Positions 25,851 through 29,655 of a stretch of 46,190 bases of DNA are shown here, piece by piece. The position numbers and the translations under genes are program-made. The notes beneath the pieces were generated by a model. It was not told where the DNA came from and made no database searches. It saw only the letters and a list, made by a program, of their open reading frames with translations. The stretch's first letter is position 1; each line of letters starts with the position of its first letter. Origin of the DNA: Euryarchaeota archaeon (lineage in GTDB: Archaea; Thermoplasmatota; SW-10-69-26; JACQPN01); contig JACQPN010000016.1 in NCBI GenBank assembly GCA_016207515.1, positions 1 to 46,190 of the forward strand. The letters are read 5' to 3'.

Positions 25851-26660
25851 ATGGTGCCTCGAAGCATTCGCGGCCGCGTGGGACAGGAGGCCAAGGAAGA
25901 GAAGACGCTCAAGGACCTCCAGGGCGAGCACAAGCCGCCGCCGACCGCGCGGCGCCAATCCCTTGTCGAGGAGGCCGGGGAGAAATCCGCGTTCAGGAAC
26001 TACGTGCGAGACCTCATCCTCGGATTCAACGACGGCATCGTCTCGGTCTATGCTGTCGTGGCGGGGCTCACGGGCGCCGGGTTTCTCGCTCGCGAGATCG
26101 CCGTCGCGGGGGTTGCGGCCTCGATCGCAGGCGCCATGTCGATGGGGCTAGGCGAGTACGTATCGACGAAGGGCCAAGCCGAGTACTATCGCGCGGAGGC
26201 CGAGCGCGAACGAAGGCACATCCGCACGCACCCGCAGTTGGAACGAGAGGAGATCCGCGAGATCCTCGAGAAGAAGGGGTTCCCGACGGCGACGATCGAG
26301 GACACGGTAGAATGGATCGCTTCCGACGAGGATCGGTTCGTGGATTTCATGATGCGCGAGGAGTTCGGGGTCGGCGACGAAAGCGGCCGGAGCCCGTTGA
26401 AAGCGATGGGGCTGGTGGTGGTCGCGTTCCTCGTCGGCGCTGGCCTATCCGTGCTCCCGTTCATCCTCATTGGCACCGCGACCTCGGCAGCGGCGGTCGC
26501 GACGACTTTGAGCCTCTCCGGCCTTTTCTTCGCGGGAGCGGTCCGCGGTCGGTCGAGCGGGCTCAACTGGGTCAAGACGGGCGGTGAAATGTTGATCCTG
26601 GGCGCGGCGGCCGCCATCGTGACCTTCGCCGTCGGGTCGTACTTCGGGGTGCGGGCGTAG
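25851..26660 (+). CDS. VIT/CCC1-family Fe/Mn transporter
   Basis: 269 residues; ATG 25851 has GGAGG eight bases upstream. After a ~50-residue charged N-terminus, TM1 carries the signature [21 protein letters not shown] (N-D-G), followed by [20 protein letters not shown] in TM2 and the cytosolic metal-binding helices with many Glu ([20 protein letters not shown]). Three more helices end the protein. VIT1/CCC1 proteins move Fe2+ or Mn2+ out of the cytosol. Divergent from icd, with ~70 bases between starts. Confidence 0.9.
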
Positions 26661-26726
26661 GCGCCGCCTCTCGGGCCCCCACGTGCCCGAACAATCTTGA
26701 TATAACGGGACCAAGAATGCCGTCCC

Positions 26727-27191
26727 ATGACCGATTCCAAGGGGGCGTTTGCGTCCGTCGACCCGGCGCCGCCGGCGCCTGAGGAGGACGTTCCTGGCCT
26801 GCGGACACGCCTTCTCGACCGATCGCTCCCGATGTTCCAAAGGATGCGCGCCGTGTTCTCACTCAGGTCGCTTTCGACGGGCCCCGCCATCGAGGCCATT
26901 TGCGAGGCGATGCTCGTCGACGACTCGGCGCTGCTTCGTCACGAGTGCGCGTTCGTACTCGGGCAACTCCAGGACCGTCGTGCGATCCCGGCGCTCAAGG
27001 AATCGATAAGGAAGGATGCGAACCCCATGGTGCGTCATGAGGCGTGTGAGGCCCTCGGAAACATGGGCACGGAGGAGATCGTCCCGCTCTTGGAGCATTA
27101 CAAGTTGCACGACCCCTCGTTCGAAGTCCGTCAATCGTGCGAGGTGGCGCTCGATAACATCGCGTACCTCAAGGACCCGACCGATTTCTGA
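26727..27191 (+). CDS. HEAT-repeat protein resembling one half of deoxyhypusine hydroxylase
   Basis: 154 residues with an acidic/Pro N-terminus of ~22 and about four HEAT-like repeats. Two contain His-Glu pairs in the deoxyhypusine hydroxylase (DOHH) context: LLRHECAFVLGQLQDRRAIP near 71-90 and PMVRHEACEALGNMGTEEIV near 101-120, then DPSFEVRQSCEVALDNIAYL. DOHH is built of two such halves, each giving two His-Glu motifs to a di-iron centre. This protein has one half only, so a homodimer could rebuild the four-motif site. It could also be a PBS-lyase-type HEAT scaffold without catalysis. Confidence 0.75.
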   Translation: MTDSKGAFASVDPAPPAPEEDVPGLRTRLLDRSLPMFQRMRAVFSLRSLSTGPAIEAICEAMLVDDSALLRHECAFVLGQLQDRRAIPALKESIRKDANPMVRHEACEALGNMGTEEIVPLLEHYKLHDPSFEVRQSCEVALDNIAYLKDPTDF

Positions 27192-27948: not shown

Positions 27949-29655
27949 ATGAGACGGCTGGCAGTCTTGGTCGTATTGGCCATCATCGTCGCACCGGGTG
28001 GTCTCGCCGCGGAGGACGGTTCTGGAGCGTTCCTTGCTTTCCTACCGGCGGAGATACGCGGGCCCTCTTATTCCGAAGCGTCGTCCCCGACACTCTACCT
28101 CCATGGCGACCGAGACGCGGGCGTCTCGCCCGAGGGCGCTTTCTCCGCGGCGAAGGCCACCGTGACCCTGTTCACCGTCAAGTCGCGCGTGATCGTGTCG
28201 CCTGACGGCGTGGAGCAGACTGCCATCCACGAGAACGGGGGTGTCCCCACAGTGGAGACCACCACCTTCGGTTCCGCGATCCTTCGTTTCTCGTCGCTTC
28301 TCCCGTCGCCCCAGTACCGCGACGTCCCGGCGATCCAGGTATTGTTCTACCCCTCAGGTACTTCTTCCGAGGTGACTTTCGAGCCGTCCCAAGTCGGGTA
28401 TATTTCCAGCGCGAAGGACTTCACGGTCCGCGACCCGATGCGGGCGCCGGACGCTGTATCCTCCCAATCAAACGCATGGGATTTCGAGCACCGTATCCCC
28501 GGTGAAGTGCTCGCAGCGACCGGGAACGGACGCGTCACGATAGAGGGGGCGACCGACCTCTTCGTTTTCGGGGCGTCCTTCACGGTGGGGACGGGCACGA
28601 AGACCGCCTCTTACTCGACGGGGAAGACCTTCACGGACGAAGGCCCCGTGCGCGAGATGACGAGGTCGTGGGCGACCCTAAGGCTTGAGGGCGTGAGCGG
28701 CACGTTGGAGACGAAGGGTCTTGATGCGTCGCTTCTTTCGAATCGCGTTCTCACCAGCGTCGACGGCGAGGTGAGACTGGGCATGGCAGAGGGCTCGCTT
28801 GAGACCCCGACGCTGCTTTTCAGGACCGAGTCGGCGCGACCCGTGACGATTATGGGCGTTTTCCAGATGGAATCCGGCATCGGCGAGGATGGGCGTGGCG
28901 ACTTCCGCATCAGCGGATCGATCGCGAGCGTCTCTTGGGACGCGACGATGAAACCGGCCGCGGCGACCACGGTGCTTCCGTCGGCGGCCCTGCCGATCGG
29001 CGTTTTGGCCGTGGGCGTCGTCGGCATTGCAGCTTACATGGGGGCAAGACGGGGGAGTCTTGCGGGCGCGGGGCTTTGGACTTTCAGCCTCCGCAAAAAG
29101 CAACAGCCTCGCGCCCGAGACCCCTCGCCTGAGGATGCGTTGAACAGCCAAGACTTCGTCTTCGCCAACGAGGTGCGCGCCTTGGCCTACGAGCTTGTGG
29201 AGAAGCGCGCGGGCCTTACGAAGAGGGAGATAGTTTCGATAATCGGCAAGGCGGAGGCGGCCGCGGAGGTCGAGGGGCTGGTCGCAAAGGGCCTCATCCT
29301 TCGCCGGGCGGCGCCAGGCGGTGAGCGGTACTTCTTCCCGATGAGGCAAGTGGAGGAGAATTTCGAGCGCATCGCGTATCTACGTAGCGACAAGGCGAGC
29401 CGTGTCGCCGAGATCGTGTTGCTCTACGGGATAATCCCGGCCGAGGATGTGGAGGCGGCCGGGGGCACGGCGCAGCCGAGGATTTCGGCCCGCGAGGTGA
29501 GGAGGATCCTCGGAAGGTTGGAATCGCTCGGACTTGTGAGGCTGCTTGATGAGGGTGCGAAGCGCATGGTGGAGCCGACGCTCGCGCTTCAAGAATGCCT
29601 CGAACTCATGGGAACGGCCATTCCCGAGGCGCGCATCAGGGATTATTCGTCGTGA
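27949..29655 (+). CDS. Membrane-anchored protein: secreted ectodomain, one TM, cytosolic winged helices
   Basis: 568 residues. Signal peptide 1-20 (MRRLAVLVVLAIIVAPGGLA); a beta-rich ectodomain of ~320 residues without cysteines; one membrane helix at ~343-364 (SAALPIGVLAVGVVGIAAYM) followed by a basic stop-transfer RR. The cytosolic part contains a helix-turn-helix-like segment at ~405-455 (LVEKRAGLTKREIVSIIGKAEAAAEVEGLV) and a second one at ~480-550 (ISAREVRRILGRLESLGLVRLL) ending in a coil. This topology suggests a one-component sensor that could bind DNA from the membrane. The ligand is unknown. Its 3' end overlaps the converging ArsR-like gene by 20 bases. Confidence 0.75.
   Translation: MRRLAVLVVLAIIVAPGGLAAEDGSGAFLAFLPAEIRGPSYSEASSPTLYLHGDRDAGVSPEGAFSAAKATVTLFTVKSRVIVSPDGVEQTAIHENGGVPTVETTTFGSAILRFSSLLPSPQYRDVPAIQVLFYPSGTSSEVTFEPSQVGYISSAKDFTVRDPMRAPDAVSSQSNAWDFEHRIPGEVLAATGNGRVTIEGATDLFVFGASFTVGTGTKTASYSTGKTFTDEGPVREMTRSWATLRLEGVSGTLETKGLDASLLSNRVLTSVDGEVRLGMAEGSLETPTLLFRTESARPVTIMGVFQMESGIGEDGRGDFRISGSIASVSWDATMKPAAATTVLPSAALPIGVLAVGVVGIAAYMGARRGSLAGAGLWTFSLRKKQQPRARDPSPEDALNSQDFVFANEVRALAYELVEKRAGLTKREIVSIIGKAEAAAEVEGLVAKGLILRRAAPGGERYFFPMRQVEENFERIAYLRSDKASRVAEIVLLYGIIPAEDVEAAGGTAQPRISAREVRRILGRLESLGLVRLLDEGAKRMVEPTLALQECLELMGTAIPEARIRDYSS

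Follow-up and report, generated by a model that had tools for sequence, protein, structure and literature searches.

A half-length archaeal homologue of deoxyhypusine hydroxylase in Thermoplasmatota, predicted to act as a homodimeric di-iron enzyme

Eukaryotic deoxyhypusine hydroxylase (DOHH) consists of two symmetric halves, whose four His-Glu motifs bind two irons. The active-site pairs of the human enzyme are H56-E57, H89-E90, H207-E208 and H240-E241; six of these residues anchor iron, and E57, E90, E208, E241, G65 and G214 are described as substrate-binding residues (PMC9117371). The human di-iron centre is formed by two arms in cooperation (PMC8153317), so one half chain alone should not suffice. 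Some archaea have hypusine, yet passages of two reports state that a DOHH orthologue is found in no archaeal genome (PMC5178350, PMC6105217), and a passage of a third calls DOHH absent from archaea and bacteria (PMC3306375). A report of an archaeal DOHH was not found in the searchable full-text literature, a collection that largely excludes subscription papers and preprints.

Here we describe a gene (half-DOHH; protein P0001, 154 aa) at positions 26727-27191 of the plus strand, running from ATG to TGA, in a window of 46,190 bases that is the whole of contig G000:C16 from a genome of 2.67 Mb (98.4% complete). The initial annotation took the product for a half-sized DOHH-like HEAT protein and pointed to two His-Glu motifs (LLRHECAFVLGQLQD, residues 69-83, and MVRHEACEALGNMG, residues 101-114) followed by DPSFEVRQSCEVALDNI (residues 129-145) as matches to DOHH segments; both statements were confirmed by the database searches, the alignment and the residue conservation reported below. 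P0001 has one domain with four HEAT repeats. On the plus strand, the coding sequence specifies an SVDPAPP motif (residues 10-16; 26754-26774), which had gone unmentioned in the initial annotation and which matches the linker before the human DOHH C-half, a first His-Glu pair H72-E73 (26940-26945) aligned with human H56-E57 and H207-E208, G79 (26961-26963) aligned with the substrate-binding G214, a second pair H104-E105 (27036-27041) aligned with human H89-E90 and H240-E241, and the C-terminal repeat signature QSCEVALD (27132-27155), for which most relatives and the human C-half have ESCEVALD. The glycine of the human N-half that aligns with G79 is position 63 by our count and is printed as 65 in the source (PMC9117371). 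A TATA-like ttgatataac (26697-26706, plus strand), read by eye about 26 bases 5' of the ATG, may be the gene's own promoter. The upstream neighbour, 66 bases away, encodes a VIT1-family transporter (PF01988 by Pfam; 25851-26660, plus strand); an iron link through this neighbour was considered and rejected, as none of the other contexts examined showed it. A tRNA-Val lies downstream of half-DOHH, and other neighbours in the window include an isocitrate/isopropylmalate dehydrogenase family gene and genes for a PUA-domain protein, a SepF homologue and a GCD14-type tRNA methyltransferase. The window also encodes a 568-aa protein (27949-29655, plus strand) with no Pfam match; by eye, its start is signal-like, a single membrane stretch is present and the C-terminal part resembles a winged-helix regulator.

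In a phmmer search of the PDB, the best match of P0001 was human DOHH (4d4z, E 5.4e-59), both halves of which align over nearly all of the query (N-half 93.0 bits, C-half 108.7 bits). The next match was a synthetic alphaRep fusion with a whole-chain E of 2.1e-38 and 14.8-37.6 bits per stretch. A profile of 11 sequences (P0001 and ten relatives) found 4d4z at E 1.2e-98, with 153.7 bits for the N-half and 174.4 bits for the C-half; the designed trimer 6veh received 83.3 bits as a whole chain, a phycocyanobilin lyase subunit 36.4 and MTH187 31.0, and as whole chains several multi-repeat alphaRep designs reached higher scores, with a maximum of 216.2 bits over seven stretches. When the human halves were used as queries against the frames of the fetched loci, half proteins gave 72-141 bits and generic HEAT proteins of the same phylum at most 45 bits. 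The SVDPAPP motif near the N-terminus of P0001 is also found in human DOHH at the point where the C-half begins, and this likeness is not due to repeat convergence because the motif lies outside any HEAT repeat. Homology to DOHH extends across a whole half. We concluded that P0001 is shown, at the level of sequence, to be homologous to DOHH and not to be a generic HEAT protein.

The domain names assigned to P0001 by Pfam are those of HEAT families only (HEAT_2, 62.8 bits; HEAT_PBS, 56.7 bits), and both families are matched in 67/67 members of alignment A3 (P0001 and 66 of the other 77 sequences). These matches favor a non-catalytic HEAT-repeat scaffold, or a chaperone-like protein of the PBS-lyase kind. 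We consider such a protein very improbable: the HEAT names are uninformative because no DOHH model was among the Pfam results, the NCBIfam equivalog models of PBS-lyase proteins score far below their cut-offs (NblB 35.8 of 300 bits, CpcE 18.7 of 330, CpcF 14.5 of 220), and among the invariant columns of the half proteins are the residues that bind iron and substrate in DOHH, which are absent from the aligned generic HEAT segments. To our knowledge, the DOHH His-Glu pairs are not expected in PBS-lyase HEAT proteins. A PBS-lyase scaffold was rejected on the equivalog scores and residue conservation. The comparison of DOHH with PBS-lyase HEAT proteins that had been proposed with the initial annotation thus came out in favor of human DOHH, the best match by sequence and by fold. 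The phylogeny proposed alongside it placed both human halves among the archaeal half proteins and the generic HEAT segments at saturated distance (branches 8-10), and because of this saturation the tree shows only that the human halves group apart from generic HEAT. The gene may have been overlooked because profile libraries recognise nothing in it but HEAT or PBS-lyase repeats. One further HEAT_2 protein, and no others, was found in the genome (G000:C12:19396-22676; L150:396-3677); from its sequence it appears to be an M1-type aminopeptidase that ends in a HEAT tail.

AlphaFold2 modeling of P0001 (67 sequences) gave a mean pLDDT of 92.9 and a pTM of 0.86, with eight helices in four hairpins, i.e., four HEAT repeats. 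The best Foldseek match of the model was again 4d4z (E 1.3e-9, 48% identity over 143 columns), followed by an alphaRep design (8.6e-5). The model therefore has the HEAT-repeat fold of a DOHH half according to AlphaFold and Foldseek, and in VIA-align 4d4z came first at Z 20.4 in what amounts to a tie with alphaRep (19.5). Because of this tie the fold alone would not identify DOHH, and it is the sequence that does. In the loci examined, one matched domain was present in 121/121 frames and a second DOHH domain was found in none of them; as all are single-domain, no archaeal chain among the 121 frames could form the site alone. A fusion to a larger protein, suggested by frames 320, 650 and about 215 aa long, was rejected, since the matched domain ends long stop-free stretches.

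Residues H72, E73, G79, H104 and E105 are invariant in 78/78 half proteins of the alignment, as are D12 and P13. Three of 80 loci (L023, L060, L089) had been left out of this alignment for a stop or an X. The 78-sequence set was fetched by patterns that contained one or the other His-Glu pair, and conservation was for this reason recounted on 40 distinct rows found without motif patterns, which came from protein or profile searches or were cut from stretches around such matches. The same five residues are invariant in 40/40 of these rows. The His-Glu pairs were not seen in the aligned generic HEAT segments. From the invariant ligand residues we predict a di-iron centre and O2 activation in half-DOHH.

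The partners of hypusine formation are encoded in the same genome. It had been proposed to look there for deoxyhypusine synthase (DHS), and two DHS-family genes were found: one scores above the archaeal DHS equivalog cut-off (404.6 vs 350 bits; nearest PDB entry 8put), and the other (G000:C24:25064-25948; L002) is a divergent paralogue under all equivalog cut-offs. A search of 20 genomes found this divergent gene in most of them; it perhaps serves polyamine synthesis. DHS was found in 20/20 genomes examined, including nine Poseidoniales without half-DOHH. The window genome also encodes aIF5A with the target lysine (SKPGKHG loop); aIF5A was found in 19/20 genomes searched. The loop is invariant in 18/18 aligned aIF5A sequences, with or without half-DOHH, and no loop feature that tracks the presence of half-DOHH was seen among them. 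In Sulfolobus acidocaldarius, an archaeon reported to have hypusine and used here as a control, a HEAT_2 protein was not found. Crenarchaeal hypusine must thus come from another enzyme, and half-DOHH is not a general archaeal solution.

Taken together, P0001 is probably a half-length deoxyhypusine hydroxylase, that is, a homodimeric di-iron enzyme that would make hypusine on aIF5A, the dimer, the iron and the substrate being assigned by homology. This function is supported by the homology to DOHH, the conserved catalytic residues and the presence of DHS and aIF5A in the genome. Because the gene is present as a single copy and each chain has two invariant His-Glu pairs, a homodimer would have as many pairs as human DOHH, namely four. 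Each chain has four HEAT repeats, and according to the sequence and the predicted fold the two in the middle carry one His-Glu pair apiece. Two identical chains would pair face to face like the halves of human DOHH, and H72/E73 and H104/E105 of both chains would hold two irons. The same His-Glu residues together with G79 may hold the deoxyhypusine side chain. Once the DHS of the same genome has made deoxyhypusine at Lys36 of aIF5A, the di-iron centre would react with O2 to give a peroxo species and would hydroxylate this residue. The observation made in the initial annotation was right, and its interpretation, a homodimer that could build the di-iron site and hydroxylate aIF5A, is the best explanation and a well-supported functional prediction.

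Genomic context does not name aIF5A as the substrate, and in Poseidoniales it points in another direction, to a DOHH-type di-iron hydroxylase with a different substrate, e.g., in quinone biosynthesis. Immediately upstream of the Poseidoniales gene lies mqnD, which belongs to the futalosine menaquinone pathway (we take the names mqnD and mqnA from our reading of PF02621 and the sequence). Among 81 records examined, an mqnD-like PF02621 gene was found upstream on the same strand in 67/67 loci with both genes called, at a spacing of -47 to +54 bases in 66 of those 67, and the pair is retained where the flanking genes are inverted. The remaining records comprise seven with a PF02621 gene in which half-DOHH is uncalled (overlaps or gene calling) and seven without a PF02621 neighbour (the window, L018, L019, L020, L030, L042 and L066). 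In some Poseidoniales loci (e.g., L075:4058-6250) a PF02621 gene, half-DOHH and a second PF02621 gene stand together, the first two overlapping or nearly so. Against another substrate, which we regard as unlikely, G062 (92% complete) and the less complete genomes G003, G151 and G213 have half-DOHH and no PF02621 gene, PF02621 genes are kept without half-DOHH in seven Poseidoniales genomes, the PF02621 genes of the window genome sit on another contig (C23), and half-DOHH retains all the glutamates and the glycine with which DOHH binds its substrate. PF02621 was absent from 4/9 of the non-Poseidoniales half-DOHH genomes tested, and a shared half-DOHH neighbour was not seen in eight loci outside Poseidoniales. 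A menaquinone enzyme is weakened as a candidate by the genomes that have one gene but lack the other. We read the pairing of the mqnD-like gene with half-DOHH as a lineage-specific operon, which leaves room for another substrate.

To describe the distribution of half-DOHH, a family profile was searched against 389 genomes of the phylum. There were 109 matches at 1e-10, and five of them (G183, G195, G236, G365 and G377; 42-49 bits) were excluded, being generic HEAT. The 104 genomes kept are mostly marine Poseidoniales and include partial or broken genes (e.g., in G346, G123, G333, G190, G279, G105 and G097; the matches in G097 and G105 carry internal stops). They belong to eight families (f17, 56 genomes; f25, 39; f2, f3 and f31, two each; f1, f32 and f39, one each). 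Since homologues of the same architecture occur in 104/389 genomes, we concluded that the reading frame is a conserved gene. A search with P0001 matched 14 of 60 relatives, ten of them full-length besides the gene's own genome. In a genome-contig scan, among the best 80 of 236 relatives, the titles that name a group are thermoplasmatotal or euryarchaeal except for three bacterial labels. These three (L018, L040 and L077, titled Proteobacteria, Rhodobiaceae and Deltaproteobacteria, respectively) carry an archaeal half-DOHH; L018 corresponds to G004, a genome placed with the order to which the window belongs, so the submitters' labels look wrong. Viral contigs gave 36 pattern matches, none confirmed as half-DOHH, no carrier was found among phages, and a haloarchaeal plasmid gave one weak partial match (37%). 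Viral or plasmid carriers were rejected on these results.

The predicted enzyme would use O2, and we compared its distribution with that of COX1 (PF00115), which passed the E-value limit in 191/389 genomes (the COX1 set omits G070, where the match fell below the cut-off). COX1 is present in 95/104 half-DOHH genomes; the nine without it are all in f17 and f25, where COX1 is otherwise common. COX1 occurs without half-DOHH in 96 genomes and neither is found in 189 (Fisher p 4e-26, kinship ignored). All eight half-DOHH families fall within the 16 COX1 families. The co-occurrence fits an O2-using enzyme and is no proof of one, being confounded by kinship.

Signs of gene loss were seen among the seven Poseidoniales genomes that have a PF02621 gene and no half-DOHH. 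In G077 (L165, minus strand 1-1434) a 478-aa frame downstream of the PF02621 gene starts with 25 half-DOHH residues, including GSVDPAPPSS, and continues as an unrelated protein, i.e., a deletion-fusion relic. A stop-broken half-DOHH remnant stands behind the PF02621 gene of G091 (L170, about 2351-2500), which looks like loss in progress. In G126, two PF02621 genes are adjacent with nothing between them. As several Poseidoniales without the gene keep DHS, and remnants are seen, half-DOHH is dispensable in some members of this group. Yeast DOHH is likewise dispensable, lia1 deletion mutants being described as viable (PMC8153317).

The relation of P0001 to the two human halves bears on its origin. 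Sequence identity of P0001 is 48.9% with the human C-half and 43.8% with the N-half, compared with 39.8% between the two human halves. The closer match to the C-half, together with the SVDPAPP linker that precedes the C-half in human DOHH, would suit a one-half DOHH fragment derived from a eukaryote and now having another role or none. The tree leaves room for it too, with an ambiguous branching order of the halves: the two human halves as one clade were neither rejected by a topology test (p-AU 0.355) nor shown. Nevertheless, a eukaryotic fragment is highly unlikely, since P0001 is nearer to both human halves than these are to each other, the gene is spread over eight families of the phylum at 45-61% identity and is thus old, and both His-Glu pairs are kept throughout, which a functionless fragment would not show. 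Returning to the homodimeric enzyme, we tentatively suggest that it may complete aIF5A hypusine in oxygen-respiring Thermoplasmatota and may preserve the state before the duplication and fusion behind the two-halved eukaryotic protein. Such a protein would be expected to descend from a half chain that paired with itself, and half-DOHH in this way bears on the origin of eukaryotic DOHH. It is a candidate, directly testable enzyme for archaeal hypusine in a group that includes abundant marine archaea, and if the prediction is true it would supply, for one archaeal group, the enzyme that papers report missing from archaea.

Among the systems compared, the PBS-lyase HEAT proteins (CpcE/CpcF and NblB) have HEAT_PBS repeats in common with half-DOHH, which in contrast to them scores far under their equivalog cut-offs. 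YfcM (EpmC), the EF-P hydroxylase of bacteria, carries out what would be the analogous step on the bacterial counterpart of aIF5A and is described as having a non-canonical hydroxylase structure (PMC4231759). Haloferax volcanii, an example of archaea with deoxyhypusine only, has DHS and aIF5A like the half-DOHH genome, and differs in that its aIF5A is about 99% deoxyhypusinylated, with no DOHH homologue reported (PMC5178350). The closest systems are human DOHH (4d4z) and yeast Lia1, with which half-DOHH shares the HEAT fold, the His-Glu pairs in the second and third repeats, the substrate glycine, the SVDPAPP linker, the ESCEVALD signature and 44-49% identity. It differs from eukaryotic DOHH in being archaeal and half as long: where the eukaryotic chain has eight HEAT repeats in two symmetric halves and four His-Glu pairs, P0001 has four repeats in 154 aa and two pairs, both at DOHH positions. 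A strict definition, with eight repeats and four pairs per chain, excludes half-DOHH from the eukaryotic-type DOHH enzymes, and we class it as a half-length variant of them.
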